DNA of 64,000 nucleotides from Microbacterium ginsengisoli (GTDB lineage: Bacteria > Actinomycetota > Actinomycetes > Actinomycetales > Microbacteriaceae): NCBI RefSeq assembly GCF_000956535.1, contig NZ_JYIY01000080.1, positions 248,001-312,000 of the forward strand, written 5' to 3'. The notes beneath the pieces are model-generated. The model was not told the DNA's origin and did not search any database. It was given only the letters and a program-made list of their open reading frames with translations. Position numbers and translations under genes: made by a program. This document shows, piece after piece, positions 21,845-64,000 of the stretch (its first letter is position 1; every line of letters starts with the position of its first letter).

Positions 21845-22198
21845 TCACGCCCGCACGAAGCGCGGCTGGCGCGGTGGGCGCCGAGGGTCCGGGGGCGCGG
21901 CGAGCGTGCCGTCGGGCGCGATGTGGTCGAGCATCGCCGCGACCACCGCGACGATGTGCGGATCGTCGACCCGATAGAGCTGCCGGCGTCCCTGCCGGCG
22001 TGCGCTGACGACACCGGCGGCGCGCAGCTTCGCGAGCTGCTGGCTCGTCGCGGGGATCGTCGCCCCGGTGCGCTCAGCGAGGGTCGTGACATCCGATTCG
22101 TCGTCCGAGAGCAGCCACACCAGGTGCAGGCGGCCCGGAACCGACAGGAGGTCGAACGTGTCGGCGGCCGCGGCGAGCTGCGCTACCGCGGCCGGCCG
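21845..22198 (-). pseudogene. ArsR-family regulator remnant lacking its start
   Basis: The frame encodes a good ArsR winged helix (ADTFDLLSVPGRLHLVWLL, VTTLAERTGATIPATSQQLAKLRAAGVVSARRQGRRQLYRVDD) up to the stop at 21845. No ATG, GTG or TTG lies in frame between the conserved N-terminal helix and about 22260; upstream codons run antisense through the ABC remnant. The 5' end was lost at the junction near 22165-22200. It might still be translated by fusion to something upstream, but no such start is credible. Confidence 0.65.
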
Positions 22199-59150: not shown

Positions 59151-60236
59151 TCAGGCGGATGCCTCCTCGGTGGGGCGAGCCAGCGCGATCTGCATGTCGA
59201 GGGTGAGCGGCGATCGGGTGACGAGCTCGTGCACGAAGGCGAACTTCCGCTTGACGGCCGCGGGGTGCTCGAACGGGTAGAGGTCGCCGAGTCCCATCGA
59301 CCGATTTATGCGATTGAACGCCTGCGACATCCAGGTCCAGTCGTTGAGCAGAGGCTGCACCGGCTGGTCGAGGTAGGACTCGCGAGGGATCACGTCGATG
59401 TCGCGGAGGTTAGTGACCGAGGCGTCGAGATGGATGCCGATGGCCGCCGCCGTCTGCAGGGTGCCTGTGATGTGCAGGTAGTGGGCGAAGGTCTCGGCGA
59501 AGTCCTCCCACGGGTGCATGGTCGCGTACTCGGAAAGATACGACTCGTTCCAGTCGTCGGGCGCGCCGAACCGGTAGTGGCGGGCGATGGCATCCTGATA
59601 GCTCTCGCGCTCGTCACCGAACAGCTCACGGCAGCGATCCCACGTGGCGTCGTCGGTGATGAGCACGTTCTGGTAGTAGTGGCCGACCTCGTGACGCAGG
59701 TGCCCGAGCATGGTGCGGTACGGCTCGCCGAGCCGCACCCGCAGCGCCTCACGACGGTCGTCGAGGCTCTCGGCGAGGTCGAGGGTGATGATGCCGTTCG
59801 CGTGCCCGATGATCACGCGCTTGCCGTCGGACAGGCTCGAGAGCAGGTCGAAACCGAGGCCGCCCGGCTTCACGTCCCACCCGACGATCGGCAGCCCCAG
59901 CTGGCCGAGCTGAAGCACAAGACGGCGCTTCGCCTCTTCGGTCTTCGCGAGCTTCTCGAGGGCCACGGTGTCGTCGGCGTCGGGCTGGGTGCGGGTGAGC
60001 CGGCACGAGAAGCAGCGGCCGGTGGGGGCGTCCTCGCGCACGAGCCAGTTGCACTGCCAGCCACGGTTCGAGCAGGTGTACCAGGTCTCCCCGTCGATGA
60101 CGACGCGACCGTCTCGCAGGCCGTAGAACTGCTGGGTGAGCAGCTGATACCCGAGCTCCGCCTCGCACTCCGGGCAGGTCAGGGCGTCGAGGTAGACGAA
60201 GTGCCGGCAGTGGGGGCACCGGGGCTGTGAGCTCAC
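59151..60236 (-). CDS. Zinc-ribbon protein with putative zinc metallopeptidase domain
   Basis: 361 aa. N-terminal ribbon CPHC (7-10) / CPEC (21-24), a second Cys-rich element (WYTCSNRGWQCNW ... GRCFSC), then a domain with HEVGHYYQN and the downstream acidic/His pair WEDFAETFAHYLHITG, the arrangement of Peptidase_Mx (PF15887). Cytosolic, no signal. Substrate unknown. GTG start at 60236. Confidence 0.87.
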   Translation of the reverse strand: MSSQPRCPHCRHFVYLDALTCPECEAELGYQLLTQQFYGLRDGRVVIDGETWYTCSNRGWQCNWLVREDAPTGRCFSCRLTRTQPDADDTVALEKLAKTEEAKRRLVLQLGQLGLPIVGWDVKPGGLGFDLLSSLSDGKRVIIGHANGIITLDLAESLDDRREALRVRLGEPYRTMLGHLRHEVGHYYQNVLITDDATWDRCRELFGDERESYQDAIARHYRFGAPDDWNESYLSEYATMHPWEDFAETFAHYLHITGTLQTAAAIGIHLDASVTNLRDIDVIPRESYLDQPVQPLLNDWTWMSQAFNRINRSMGLGDLYPFEHPAAVKRKFAFVHELVTRSPLTLDMQIALARPTEEASA

Positions 60237-60289
60237 GTGCTCACGCTAGTGGTCGGCGGGGATCAGGGCGACTCCCCCGAAACGGCGAA

Positions 60290-60307
60290 ACGCCCCTGGT
60301 GGGGCGT
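60290..60307 (-). terminator. Terminator after tRNA-Ala
   Basis: On the minus strand ACGCCCC, 4-nt loop, GGGGCGT, followed by TTCGCCGTTT: a perfect 7-bp stem with a T-rich tail, 12 nt after the encoded CCA. Confidence 0.75.
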
Positions 60308-60318
60308 CTCGGCTGGTG

Positions 60319-60394
60319 TGGTGGACCTGAGGGGATTCGAACCCCTGACCTCTTCATTGCGAACGAAGCGCGCTACCAACTGCGCCACAGGCCC
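60319..60394 (-). tRNA. tRNA-Ala (anticodon CGC)
   Basis: 76 nt including encoded CCA. Acceptor GGGCCTG/CAGGTCC (one G-T pair), discriminator A, anticodon loop TTCGCAA, T arm AGGGG-TTCGAAT-CCCCT. Confidence 0.95.
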
Positions 60395-60454
60395 GTGAAC
60401 CTCCGATACATTACCACGCGGCCCGGCCGCGCCTCGCATCGAGGCGGCGCACGC

Positions 60455-60751
60455 TCAGGCCCCGGAGACTCGGCTCACCCTCACCTTCACCCGCGCACCA
60501 GGAGGCGCGGCGTCTCGCACCGCGGAGGCCACCGCCGCCGCGACGGCAGATGCGGAATACCCCGCGCCGACCCCTATGTTGACGGTGATCTGCGCCACCC
60601 CGGCCGTCTCCAGCACATGTACGAGAGACTCCCCCTCGCGTCCAACGAGGCGCTGCCAGGCACGTCGGGTGGTCGGAATCGCAGGGTAGACCTCGGAGAC
60701 GCCCCGCACGTTCTGGACTACGGCGAGAAGTTGCCGGGAGAAATGGGACAT
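60455..60751 (-). CDS. Small Asp23/Gls24-like protein
   Basis: 98 aa. The second half (ITVNIGVGAGYSASAVAAAVASAVRDAAPPGARVKVRVSRV) has the beta-alpha-beta core of Asp23-like domains; the first half is helical and basic. ATG 60751 is used; a TTG at 60757 would overlap the upstream stop. Third gene of the sigma-factor operon. Function unknown; probably a partner of the larger Asp23 protein. Confidence 0.65.
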   Translation of the reverse strand: MSHFSRQLLAVVQNVRGVSEVYPAIPTTRRAWQRLVGREGESLVHVLETAGVAQITVNIGVGAGYSASAVAAAVASAVRDAAPPGARVKVRVSRVSGA

Positions 60752-60753
60752 CG

Positions 60754-61320
60754 TCAATTCAGCCCACCTTCTCCTTCTTCATGGACATCGACGACGAGGA
60801 CGTCGACAGCCTCGACGGGAATCACGAACTCCGCAGAGATCGCGGCGAAGACAGCCGCCCGAACGGCATCGGCGACCTCCTTTATCACCGCGCCGAACAG
60901 CACGCTGATGCGCACGGTTACGCGAATTCCCGTGTCCGGATCTCCCGTCCTCACCTCGACGCGACCGGTGAGACAGCCGGCAATGCCGTCAGCCGCACGT
61001 CGCACGCACTCGCGAATCGCGCCCTCGGTCGTCAGTAGCTGCGTCAACTGGTCACCCCCGGGCAGTTCGAGGTCCTCGCCCGCCCTCATGTCTCGTGCCA
61101 CATCCCGCAGGAGCGAATCCAGCCACCCGGCGCTGAGCGGCTGGGACTCGTCGCGCTCAATCAGCTGCCGGGCGAAGAGGCTCATTCTGCGCATCGACTC
61201 GATGACAGCCTGGCATTCCGGGTTGCGATCGATGGCCGCGATGGGTGGTTGGCAGTCACGGTCGACATAAGCTGACAGATCTTCGAGCGAATAGCCCGAC
61301 CCTCCGATGTCCTCGTCCAT
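60754..61320 (-). CDS. Asp23/Gls24 domain protein with degenerate anti-sigma-like N-terminus
   Basis: 188 aa. Residues about 9-55 (SLEDLSAYVDRDCQPP ... DRNPECQAVIESMRRMSLF) follow the pattern of zinc-finger anti-sigma domains (LSAYLDGEL...H..CPEC), but the His and one Cys are missing. Residues about 88-188 are an Asp23 domain (ECVRRAADGIAGCLTGRVEV, IRVTVRISVLFGAVIKEVADAVRAAVFAA). The ATG at 61320 has GGAGG 8 nt upstream and sits 5 bp after the sigma-factor stop. Inference: a cognate regulator of that sigma factor that also joins the Asp23 layer. Confidence 0.75.
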   Translation of the reverse strand: MDEDIGGSGYSLEDLSAYVDRDCQPPIAAIDRNPECQAVIESMRRMSLFARQLIERDESQPLSAGWLDSLLRDVARDMRAGEDLELPGGDQLTQLLTTEGAIRECVRRAADGIAGCLTGRVEVRTGDPDTGIRVTVRISVLFGAVIKEVADAVRAAVFAAISAEFVIPVEAVDVLVVDVHEEGEGGLN

Positions 61321-61325
61321 GTTCG

Positions 61326-61871
61326 TCACCTCCATCCCTCCAACTCCTGCGCCAGCTGTCGTCTCGCTCGCGCGAGCCGACCCCGCACGGTGGAGGTCGA
61401 CTCTTCCATGACCTCGGCGATCTCTTCGTAGCTGTGTCCGACGATCTCCCGGAGCACCCAGGTTCGACGCAGATCATCCGGAAGTCGCTCGACCGCCCGA
61501 GAGAGCGCATCGAGCCGGATGGAGGTTTCTGCACGGTCAGCAGGGTCCGCCGCAGGGTCGGCCTGCTCCTGTTCATCGATGTCGACGAGATCACGACGCC
61601 CGCGAAGGCGATCCGTCGCCTTACGGGACACGATCGTCGCCAGCCAAGCCCGCACGCGCGCCGGCTCCTGGAGACTGTCCATTCTCTGCCACGCAACGAT
61701 GAGTGCATCCTGCACACAGTCATCAGCCTCGGCACGTGATCCGATCAATCGCGTGGCGAAGGCGATTAGAAATGGGGCGTGGCGGCGCACGAGCACGGCG
61801 AAGGCGCGCTCATCGCCGTCCGCAGCCCGCTCGGCCAGGAGCCCATCGGCTGCCGAGTCGAGTGAGGTCAC
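61326..61871 (-). CDS. ECF RNA polymerase sigma factor
   Basis: 181 aa from the GTG at 61871. Region 2 (AFAVLVRRHAPFLIAFATRLIGSRAEADDCVQDALIVAWQRMD) and region 4 (LSRAVERLPDDLRRTWVLREIVGHSYEEIAEVMEESTSTVRGRLARARRQL). Starts at GTG 61898 or TTG 61916 would only add a non-conserved tail. No extra C-terminal domain. First gene of an operon with two Asp23-like genes and divergent from another Asp23 operon, so it probably directs both. Confidence 0.92.
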   Translation of the reverse strand: MTSLDSAADGLLAERAADGDERAFAVLVRRHAPFLIAFATRLIGSRAEADDCVQDALIVAWQRMDSLQEPARVRAWLATIVSRKATDRLRGRRDLVDIDEQEQADPAADPADRAETSIRLDALSRAVERLPDDLRRTWVLREIVGHSYEEIAEVMEESTSTVRGRLARARRQLAQELEGWR

Positions 61872-61938
61872 GGAGTCATCGGTAGCACGAGCGCACACGC
61901 CCGGGCAAGGGACCAACTCTCGGGCTTTGATCCGGTAC

Positions 61939-61992
61939 GAAGGCGTCGAGAGTTCGACTCGACGACGCCTTCAGCAGGTTCACAGGGTGAAC
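61939..61992. promoter_or_regulatory. Inverted repeats in the sigma / Asp23 divergent promoter
   Basis: GAAGGCGTCG (61939-61948) pairs with CGACGCCTTC (61963-61972). Next to it GTTCAC-AGG-GTGAAC (61978-61992) is a perfect palindrome, presenting GTGAAC on both strands pointing outward. GTGAAC resembles an ECF -35, so the palindrome may be two divergent -35 elements. The whole divergent gap is 61872-62075. Confidence 0.5.
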
Positions 61993-62075
61993 TTCGTGAC
62001 GAATCCTCCTCGACGCGCGTCTCACTCATGTCACCGCCGCATCACGCGGCAACCGAACTCGCAAAGGAGATCATC

Positions 62076-62498
62076 ATGGCTCAGACAACCAATGACACCA
62101 CCCCCCTCATCGGCGGCGCACCGACCGGCAAGACCGTCGTTGTCGACCCCGTCGTCGCGAAGATCGTGGGCGTGGCAACGCGCGCGGTGCCCGGCGTCCA
62201 CGCGCTCGGCGGCGGCGCGGCCCGCGTGATCGGCTCGATCCGCGAAGCAGTCGGCGCGAAGGATCTCACCCAGGGTGTGAGTGTGGAGGTGGGCGAGACC
62301 GAGGTCGCCGCGGACATCTCGATCGTCGTCGACTACCCCGAGGAACTTCAGCGCGTCGCCGGAGCGGTGCGGGCTGCCGCGGCCGAGGCGATTCAGGACC
62401 TCGTCGGCATGAAGGTCGCCGAGGTCAACGTGACCATCGTCGACGTGCACATCCCGGGTGACGATGACACGGCAGAGCAGGAGGCTCGGGTCCAGTGA
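62076..62498 (+). CDS. Asp23/Gls24-family envelope stress protein
   Basis: 140 aa. VDPVVAKIVGVATRAVPGVHALGG, VEVGETEVAADISIVVDYPEELQRVAGAVRAAAAEAIQDLVGMKVAEVNVTIVDVHIPG: a full Asp23 domain. ATG 62076 has AAGGAG 8 nt upstream. First gene of the plus-strand operon; overlaps the next gene by 4 bp. Asp23 proteins are abundant and membrane-tethered through AmaP in Firmicutes. Confidence 0.92.
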   Translation: MAQTTNDTTPLIGGAPTGKTVVVDPVVAKIVGVATRAVPGVHALGGGAARVIGSIREAVGAKDLTQGVSVEVGETEVAADISIVVDYPEELQRVAGAVRAAAAEAIQDLVGMKVAEVNVTIVDVHIPGDDDTAEQEARVQ

Positions 62499-62683
62499 GC
62501 GCCGTCATCTTCGGAAGCGCGGCGGGTATCGTGCTCGCTGTCGTCGCGCTCGTCTTCGGCTTCTGGGGCTTCCTGCTCGTCGGGATGCTCGGGATTGCGG
62601 GCGGAGTGTGTGGCGCGGTCGCGGCCGGGCGGCTCGACCTTCGAGCCGCTCTCAACGCCGCGACAGGGCGTCGCGTCGGATGA
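62495..62683 (+). CDS. Small membrane protein, DUF2273-like
   Basis: 62 aa with two helices (IFGSAAGIVLAVVALVFGF, FLLVGMLGIAGGVCGAVAA) and a short basic C-terminus. Size, layout and position next to Asp23 fit DUF2273 proteins. Overlaps both neighbours by 4 bp. Confidence 0.8.
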   Translation: MSAVIFGSAAGIVLAVVALVFGFWGFLLVGMLGIAGGVCGAVAAGRLDLRAALNAATGRRVG

Positions 62684-63003
62684 CCGCAGTCCAAGGGGTG
62701 CCCGGCAGCGTGACGATTACGCGACGGGCCTACGAGAAGGTCTTCGCCGCCATAACCGCCGATGCGCTCAAGGTGGCGCCGCGCCTCGCATCGGCGCATG
62801 TTTCTGACGCTGGAGGGATGCTGCGAGTCGCGGTTACCGCGACGGCGAGCGTATCGGCCTCGCAACCGCTACCCCGCCGCCTCGCCGCCCTCGATCGCGC
62901 GATACACGATCGGGGCGGACTGCTCACCGGCGCTCGCATTCAGTACGGCGGAGCCCGCATCGTGGACGTCGTCGTCGATACGGATCTTTCGAGAGTGAGG
63001 TGA
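62680..63003 (+). CDS. Asp23-like domain protein
   Basis: 107 aa. GSVTITRRAYEKVFAAITADALKV ... GMLRVAVTATASV, consistent with an N-terminal Asp23 element, then a divergent C-terminal half (GARIVDVVVDTDLSRVR). ATGA overlap with the small membrane gene. Function unknown beyond the cluster. Confidence 0.75.
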   Translation: MTAVQGVPGSVTITRRAYEKVFAAITADALKVAPRLASAHVSDAGGMLRVAVTATASVSASQPLPRRLAALDRAIHDRGGLLTGARIQYGGARIVDVVVDTDLSRVR

Positions 63004-63007
63004 ACAT

Positions 63008-63577
63008 ATGGGAACCCGCAGTTCGTTTACGGAGCGCGCCGCGCGCCGTGAGCTTCGTCACTCGCGCAGTGTGGTCTCTACTGTCGTTGCGCTGTGCGGC
63101 GCAGTCGTGAGCTCGTGGATCGCAACGGAGCTGTTCCTCTCATGGGCGGGGCGTCCTGCCCTCGTCGTGAACCCGGAGCTGATCATTCAGCACCTCAGCG
63201 ATCCGGGGCCCCGAACGGTGCTGGTCAGCGCCGTCGCGGGACTACTCGGACTCACAGCCATCGCACTCTCGATATCGGCGGCTCGCCGAGCGCGTCGACG
63301 TGTGGGAGCTGCGTGCAACACGATCACCATCGCGGACGACGCCGTGATCGCCGGTGCGCTATCCCGCGTCGCGGCGCTCGCGGCGCACGTGTCGCAGGCG
63401 CAGGTGAGAACGACGCTCTCGCGACGCACGGCACACGTCCGGGTGACGCCCTCGTCGGGATTTCCGGTGAGTACATCTGAGGTCGCCGCAGCGGTCAGCG
63501 CTGAACTAGCCCAGATCGGAACCCTTCGACGCGTCGGCGTTCGTGTCGAGCCCGCCCGTCAAGGAACACTCGCATGA
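63008..63577 (+). CDS. DUF6286-like membrane protein of the Asp23 cluster
   Basis: 189 aa. A basic N-terminus (RAARRELRHSRS), helix 1 (VVSTVVALCGAVVSSWIATELFL), an extracytoplasmic loop, helix 2 (VLVSAVAGLLGLTAIALSI), then a cytosolic domain (NTITIADDAVIAGALSRVAALAAHVSQAQVRTTLSRRTAHVRVTP) that is itself Asp23-like. Typical of the DUF6286/AmaP type membrane anchors. ATGA overlap with the next gene. Confidence 0.78.
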   Translation: MGTRSSFTERAARRELRHSRSVVSTVVALCGAVVSSWIATELFLSWAGRPALVVNPELIIQHLSDPGPRTVLVSAVAGLLGLTAIALSISAARRARRRVGAACNTITIADDAVIAGALSRVAALAAHVSQAQVRTTLSRRTAHVRVTPSSGFPVSTSEVAAAVSAELAQIGTLRRVGVRVEPARQGTLA

Positions 63578-64000
63578 GCACGTCCAGCCGACTTCTCAAC
63601 CGGGCCGTCCTCTTCTTCGCCGGCGCGGCTCTGCTCGCCATCCCCGCAGCACTCTGGGCAGCTCATATCGGTCGGATCGATCCGTCCCTCGGGACTTCCT
63701 GGACGAAGGGTAACGCGGCCGCGGTGGGGTCCGCAGTCGCAGCTGTGATCGCTGTACTCGCCGTGCTATTCGCCCTGACCCGGGCAGGCCGTCACACGCG
63801 GGACGCCGCGCGGCGCGGATCCGACGTCGTGTCGACGAGGGCCGTCGAGAGTGTCGTACGCTCCGAGTTCGGCGAGGAGCCGGATGTGCTGTCCGCGGCG
63901 GTGCAGGCGCGCCGGCTCGGGGCCCGGACGGTCTGCCGGGTCGAGGTGCAGGTACGTCGACGCGCCCAACTCGCGGGTCTCACCGCAGACCTCTCTCGCG
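63574..64000 (+). CDS. AmaP-like membrane protein (3' end outside window)
   Basis: 142 codons present. Helix 1 (AVLFFAGAALLAIPAALWAAHIG), extracytoplasmic loop, helix 2 (AAAVGSAVAAVIAVLAVLFAL), then a cytosolic domain with RAVESVVRSEFGEEPDVLSAAVQARRLGARTVCRVEVQVRRRAQLAG, again Asp23-like. Same topology as the preceding gene; probably the alkaline-shock-type membrane anchor. Confidence 0.78.
   Translation, partial: MSTSSRLLNRAVLFFAGAALLAIPAALWAAHIGRIDPSLGTSWTKGNAAAVGSAVAAVIAVLAVLFALTRAGRHTRDAARRGSDVVSTRAVESVVRSEFGEEPDVLSAAVQARRLGARTVCRVEVQVRRRAQLAGLTADLSR

Follow-up and report, generated by a model that had tools for sequence, protein, structure and literature searches.

An extracytoplasmic function (ECF) sigma factor gene beside a putative anti-sigma domain/Asp23 fusion gene and a divergent Asp23 operon in Microbacterium ginsengisoli

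Organization of the locus

The locus analyzed here is found in a stretch of 64,000 nucleotides (nt) from Microbacterium ginsengisoli, termed the window; positions refer to the window unless a contig is named, and the bacterial family in all counts is the Microbacteriaceae. On the minus strand, an ECF sigma factor gene is followed by a gene for a 193 amino acid (aa) protein with a C-terminal Asp23 domain and by a gene for a small Asp23-like protein. An operon that begins with an Asp23 gene runs divergently from these. Asp23 proteins occur widely among Gram-positive bacteria, where they are believed to form a lining on the cytoplasmic side of the membrane; to our knowledge, little is understood of what they sense or support. 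The main features are:

61326–61916, minus strand: ECF sigma factor gene, open reading frame of 196 aa (Pfam Sigma70_r2 and Sigma70_r4_2; homologues; adjacency)
60754–61335, minus strand: anti-sigma-domain/Asp23 fusion of 193 aa, proposed cytoplasmic anti-sigma factor (AlphaFold2, profile comparisons)
61042–61335, minus strand: predicted N-terminal anti-sigma domain of the 193-aa protein, residues ~1–98 (profiles, predicted helices)
60781–61038, minus strand: C-terminal Asp23 domain of the 193-aa protein, residues ~100–185 (Pfam, profile match, fold)
60455–60757, minus strand: small Asp23-like protein of 100 aa, third gene of the sigma operon (Pfam 15.6 bits, profile match)
61996–62024, plus strand: ECF-type promoter element of the Asp23 operon, GTGAC, 17 bases, CGTC, then TCA
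62076–62498, plus strand: Asp23 protein of 140 aa (Pfam Asp23, 75.6 bits)

The original prediction described two divergent operons, and these are real: all eight of its open reading frames are confirmed at their positions, and the overlaps, Pfam matches and co-occurrence given below agree with it. A gap of about 160 bases separates the operons. The sigma and 193-aa genes overlap by 10 bases, and there are 4-base overlaps between the genes at 60754 and 60455, 62076 and 62495, 62495 and 62680, and 63008 and 63574; those at 62680 and 63008 are 4 bases apart. The short overlaps and gaps between neighbouring genes therefore indicate two tight operons. The sequence AAAGGAG at 62063–62069 precedes the Asp23 gene. 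The 60455 gene starts with TTG, or with ATG two codons further in. No sigma-70-type promoters or terminators were found across positions 60200–62500.

The sigma gene product displays Sigma70_r2 (61.8 bits) and Sigma70_r4_2 (46.8 bits), both above the Pfam cut-off, which marks it as an ECF sigma factor. Homologues in 30 non-self loci (L008, L010–L038) are 46%–61% identical. The start may be at a later codon, as most homologues begin aligning at residues 4–29.

Conservation of gene order and co-occurrence

Among 299 Microbacteriaceae genomes, 115 have a protein of the 193-aa type, 116 have an Asp23 protein and 113 have both. The fusion protein occurs without Asp23 in two genomes and Asp23 without the fusion in three, one of them marginal. 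The arrangement is thus not due to chance. A clear Asp23 gene with no match of the 193-aa type is found in the family only in genomes G198 and G200, the marginal case being G235 (E-value 8.5e-4).

Among the 150 matches to the 193-aa protein that were listed, an Asp23 gene is present within 10 kb as a divergent upstream neighbour in 82, upstream in the same direction in 14 and otherwise placed in two; 52 have no such partner. The figure of 52 is an upper bound, since the counts for both proteins come from 150 listed matches each. Two of the 150 are mirror copies in the genome of M. ginsengisoli itself. An apparent second copy of the locus near 308–311 kb of contig C80 was rejected, as the 18,001 bases of this contig that were compared are mirrored without exception. 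C80 is 339,468 bases long (the window corresponds to G000:C80:27469–91468), and the mirroring is an assembly artefact that doubles genes; it may be the cause of the 6.31% contamination value of this genome.

Gene order was read in 80 stretches selected from the listed matches and in the M. ginsengisoli stretch. Of 62 loci with the fusion gene, 61 have the sigma gene immediately upstream and 57 have a gene of the 100-aa type immediately downstream; one of the 62 lies in L094, a stretch selected as Asp23-only. The placement of this cassette relative to the Asp23 operon varies: it may be divergent, in line or apart. Six of 20 stretches first taken as unlinked do contain an Asp23 gene, and the other 14, all selected as cassette-only, have none over the score used. 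Downstream of Asp23, the DUF2273-like gene, the 107-aa type gene and both membrane protein genes are all present within 3.5 kb at 33 of 41 linked loci, 17 of 20 Asp23-only stretches and 2 of 6 further loci. A scan of genome contigs with the 193-aa protein as single query yielded one locus.

The original prediction also raised the absence of the sigma gene from otherwise intact clusters. Such absence does occur, and is only local: 19 of the 20 Asp23-only stretches have no cassette nearby, and a match of the 193-aa type is present elsewhere in all 20 genomes.

An anti-sigma-type domain fused to an Asp23 domain

The AlphaFold2 model of the 193-aa protein has a mean predicted local distance difference test (pLDDT) score of 87.8 and displays an alpha/beta domain at the C-terminal end. 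The original prediction took the protein to be Asp23-like, which fits this half; an additional predicted four-helix domain stands beside it at the N-terminal end. The sigma gene thus leads two genes with Asp23-like domains as had been proposed, and the first of them encodes a fusion and not a mere Asp23 paralogue.

Pfam detects Asp23 in the 193-aa protein at 27.6 bits, over residues 123–185 only and just below the cut-off of 28; by profile comparison the C-terminal part matches the Asp23 family at 96.6%. All structural matches of the full-length model are on this half. The model of the Asp23 domain (60781–61038) is similar to C-terminal domains of cation diffusion facilitators, e.g. that of MamM (Z 9.6).

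The helices modelled in the N-terminal domain are at residues 17–25, 33–36, 39–61 and 69–82. A class I anti-sigma domain consists of a three-helix bundle plus helix 4, as laid out in the excerpted text of PMC7406223, and the four predicted helices would correspond to these in the expected order. Helix 4 is retained, with a nearly invariant W71.

When the 193-aa protein was searched against 394 genomes of the class, 155 had matches, mostly over the Asp23 part only. Nineteen loci outside the family have long matches (L129, L131–L148) and are used as distant homologues; all 19 display the zinc motif C...HxxxCxxC. The N-terminal profile of the distant homologues matches that of the Microbacteriaceae at 99.2%. 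Against zf-HC2 proteins from neighbouring genomes it scores 96.1% for a set of 30 and 95.1% for the 13 RsrA-like ones; the zf-HC2 rows had themselves been chosen by HxxxCxxC. Control comparisons with the Asp23, 100-aa, 107-aa and sigma families gave 0.1%–0.4%. High values were also obtained against the C-terminal half of the fusion protein (70.3% and 98.3% in two comparisons); these fragments have residues in common by design and are not used as controls.

A profile of 77 N-terminal domains, 21 of them with C...HxxxCxxC, was compared with PDB sequences. The top match among 18 is 3hug_B (E-value 0.0088), which we take to be the anti-sigma factor RslA; RsiW (0.25) and DdvA (0.64) are lower. Searched against 198 genomes of the order, the N-terminal profile gave 26 listed weak matches (E-values 4.2e-6 to 8.6e-4), of which 24 are encoded by the gene next after a sigma gene; HxxxCxxC is present in 25. 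The Pfam zf-HC2 model matches none of 58 Microbacteriaceae members at E ≤ 1, and one of seven distant homologues weakly (13.6 bits, E-value 0.076). By these comparisons, approximately the first 95 residues of the 193-aa protein appear to belong with class I anti-sigma-type domains, and an Asp23 domain is joined to them on the C-terminal side.

Loss of zinc ligands

The four zinc ligand positions are occupied by S, A, N and C in the window protein, which is therefore outside the zinc-binding subtype. At least one ligand is missing in 56 of the 58 Microbacteriaceae members; L059 and L071 alone keep all four. In a tree of 77 sequences, rooted at the midpoint, these two, L129 from the order level and L066, which has three of the ligands, fall outside a 55-row family set that contains the window protein (support 100/96), and none of these 55 rows has the full motif. 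Support is weak (95/56) at one fork of the ladder. The pattern fits a stepwise loss of zinc ligands inside the Microbacteriaceae.

The loss of ligands could suggest that the 193-aa protein is not an inhibitor of the sigma factor and instead acts as a positive co-factor or as its membrane tether, since its Asp23 domain could join an Asp23 layer. This appears improbable. The excerpt of PMC7406223 describes class I domains as anti-sigma domains of which about 44% have no zinc motif (RskA and RseA are examples with solved structures), and has helix 4 in contact with sigma-2 and helix 1 with sigma-4. With so many class I domains free of the motif, and sigma bound by helices 4 and 1, zinc loss is no argument against inhibition; the conserved helix 4 and W71 of the window protein also speak against a mere co-factor.

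A promoter element upstream of Asp23 operons

The word pair GTGAC-N17-CGTC is the top pair in the sequences upstream of 67 Asp23 genes, where it is found in 49 (maximum in shuffled sequences, 7). The exact element is present in 32 of 41 linked loci, 14 of 20 Asp23-only stretches and 3 of 6 others, against a background of 3.1% in 2000 random windows of 380 bases from the same loci, some of these being true sites. With up to one mismatch and a spacing of 16–18, the counts are 40 of 41, 19 of 20 and 5 of 6, and 34% of random windows. In the window, roughly 50 bases separate the element from the Asp23 start.

A matrix was built from 48 sites and 1.95 million positions were scanned. There are 54 matches, of which 50 are before Asp23 genes (a share that is partly circular), one is before a CsbD gene and three are before no annotated gene. 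In G198 and G200, which have Asp23 and no match to the fusion protein, there is no match to the element better than two mismatches. In nine intergenic regions of other families the word pairs are mostly conserved coding sequence; a looser pattern, GTGACG...GTGTCC, is found in three of the nine (L132, L135, L140). A wide regulon was not found in the M. ginsengisoli genome, where the loose pattern gives 14 matches and its reversed control 11, mirror copies included.

Some loci depart from the common arrangement. L084:2669 (plus strand) and L088:7746 (minus strand), from genomes of the same genus, have no good element beside Asp23; in both, one is located some 1.2 kb further upstream, which would suit an additional gene at the head of the Asp23 operon. 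At L099:5409 (minus strand) the element is before a divergent CsbD gene where the cassette stands with no Asp23 gene in the stretch.

Proposed regulation

The original prediction of a dedicated ECF sigma factor tied to the Asp23 operon is borne out by the adjacency of the sigma gene to genes of the 193-aa type (61 of 62) and by the ECF-type promoter shared by Asp23 operons. It is proposed that the minus-strand operon forms a cassette that regulates the plus-strand Asp23 operon and that the 193-aa protein is the anti-sigma factor, a reading to which we assign a probability of about 70%. The N-terminal class I domain of this cytoplasmic protein would hold the ECF sigma factor, and the Asp23 domain would be its sensing or tethering part. 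We infer that the signal is a change in the condition of the membrane or the Asp23 layer; it would release the sigma factor, which would then use the element at 61996 to transcribe the Asp23 operon. Newly made Asp23 would rebuild the layer and may restore the brake, which would constitute a negative feedback loop.

Several observations weigh against this reading. The N-terminal profile of the Microbacteriaceae themselves matches the zf-HC2 proteins at 71.6% and the RsrA-like subset at 9.8%, and because this direct match is poorer, kinship with anti-sigma factors depends on the distant homologues as a bridge. An unrelated lectin ranks second in the PDB search (E-value 0.01), near the value of 3hug_B, and the isolated N-terminal domain gave no Foldseek match at E ≤ 10. 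On the promoter side, the matrix finds no element upstream of any of 61 sigma genes, and the exact words occur there in three, each a divergent Asp23 site read backwards. Because the sigma operon is without the element, there is no sign of the usual sigma autoregulation, and the pairing of sigma factor and promoter is indirect. The search for a sigma gene in G198 and G200 covered the fetched flanks only. A sample of 29 Asp23 loci from outside the family and from further genomes was split by hand, with fusion-type matches to an E-value of 4.0e-6 counted as present and G600 and G711 as absent. Where a fusion-type match is present, 7 of 19 Asp23 loci reach the matrix threshold and 12 miss it; L198 is short by less than 0.1, L202 has a spacing of 16 and the first word is altered in three f56 loci. 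Where it is absent, 0 of 10 reach the threshold, and three of these ten keep the exact words at spacing 16 (L226) or the GTGACG half (L221, L223).

The missing element before sigma genes, the 12 sub-threshold loci and the words kept where no fusion-type match is found would also suit a different arrangement, in which the sigma factor and the 193-aa protein are a pair that controls other genes and another sigma factor drives the Asp23 operon. This is unlikely in view of the near-complete co-occurrence of both proteins (113 genomes with both, two and three with one alone), the retention of the element before Asp23 operons that are remote from a cassette, the joint absence of fusion protein and element from G198 and G200, and the near restriction of the element to Asp23 operons in the fetched stretches.

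If the 193-aa protein is an anti-sigma factor, a further suggestion, and a rather speculative one, is that it is one of the Asp23 subunits and in this way gauges assembly of the layer. Whether its partners are free or lattice-bound would decide whether the sigma factor is held, the sheet would be repaired by exchange of subunits, and the zinc center could have been dropped because protein contact replaced it as the input.

Curtobacterium aetherium is presumably a member of the same family. According to the excerpted text of PMC12029717, drying raises expression of Asp23-family, CsbD-family and two unspecified sigma genes in this organism. This fits an envelope or water-stress input for the proposed circuit, although that excerpt names none of the genes described here.

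Other proteins of the Asp23 operon and its surroundings

The remaining features are:

62495–62683, plus strand: DUF2273-like small membrane protein of 62 aa (weak DUF2273 match; hydrophobic residues 1–45)
62680–63003, plus strand: Asp23-like protein of 107 aa with no Pfam match (profile match to the Asp23 family, 90.9%)
63008–63577, plus strand: two-helix membrane protein, weakly AmaP-like (hydrophobic residues 21–45 and 68–93; AmaP 17.7 bits)
63574–64000 in the window, gene end at 64104 beyond it, plus strand: two-helix membrane protein, AmaP-like (AmaP 34.9 bits, scored on the portion inside the window)
~64149–64346, beyond the window, plus strand: CsbD-like open reading frame, next after the 63574 gene

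The 62076 product is well above the gathering score of 28 for Asp23 (PF03780), which is not reached by the products of 60754, 60455 or 62680. Since these three are below the Pfam cut-off, their kinship with Asp23 is based on family profiles (90.7%–96.6%), the value for the 60455 product being 90.7%. At E ≤ 1, Pfam gives no match for the 62680 and 63008 products. The DUF2273 model (PF10031) scores 14.9 bits with the 62495 product, where the cut-off is 25.4, and both AmaP scores (NCBIfam NF033218) are below the cut-off of 55.

The membrane proteins encoded by 63008 and 63574 are paralogues (profile match 94.9%) with two hydrophobic segments each. The two helices agree with the original prediction; the Asp23-like ends it gave them are not supported, as the tails match Asp23 at 1.0% and 1.5% and any Asp23-like set at 15.6% at most. 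Pfam and profile comparison support four Asp23-like domains in the locus, where five or six had been proposed.

Four such domains together with two AmaP-like membrane proteins could still point to a multi-paralogue Asp23 layer with several anchors, in which the Asp23 proteins of the sigma operon are extra subunits. It is doubtful that this accounts for the 193-aa protein, which carries a second domain of the anti-sigma type and whose cassette can stand apart from Asp23, as in the 14 cassette-only stretches noted above. An anti-sigma role for it is preferred.

Two tRNA-Ala genes are present in the window, at 60319–60394 and 21998–22076, each called with anticodon CGC; one of the two is directly behind the sigma operon.

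Comparison with known systems

The groups ECF286 and ECF292 are reportedly those of Casas-Pastor et al. 2021. The excerpted text of PMC8999054 states that these sigma factors adjoin soluble Asp23-family proteins predicted as anti-sigma factors, and cites no experiments there. The locus described here is similar in that an ECF sigma gene is beside a gene for a soluble Asp23-family protein, and the concept is thus already predicted. Our search of full-text literature, which was not exhaustive, found no experimental study of a pair formed by an ECF sigma factor and an Asp23-family anti-sigma factor. What is added to the prediction, as it is described in that excerpt, is the two-domain anatomy of the fusion, the loss of zinc ligands in most members and a promoter element defined before the Asp23 operon. 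By its sequence, the 193-aa protein is probably a zinc-less variant of the predicted kind, and its anatomy provides a domain-level rationale for the ECF286/ECF292 prediction. If this is correct, deletion of one small gene should turn the Asp23 operon on, which would be a direct genetic handle, and the fusion would indicate that the signal is carried by protein contact.

The staphylococcal Asp23-AmaP system is under sigma-B control. The M. ginsengisoli operon resembles it in that Asp23, DUF2273-like and AmaP-like genes are in a single operon (PMC9769785, excerpted text), and differs in having a dedicated ECF sigma factor and an Asp23-fused anti-sigma candidate, and in AmaP and DUF2273 matches that are below the model cut-offs.

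The zinc class I factors RsrA, ChrR and RslA, as described in the excerpts of PMC8999054 and PMC7406223, have a four-helix N-terminal domain encoded behind a sigma gene. The 193-aa protein displays the same predicted layout, and its distant homologues keep C...HxxxCxxC. Unlike these factors, however, its C-terminal partner is an Asp23 domain, and nearly all members of its family have lost at least one zinc ligand.

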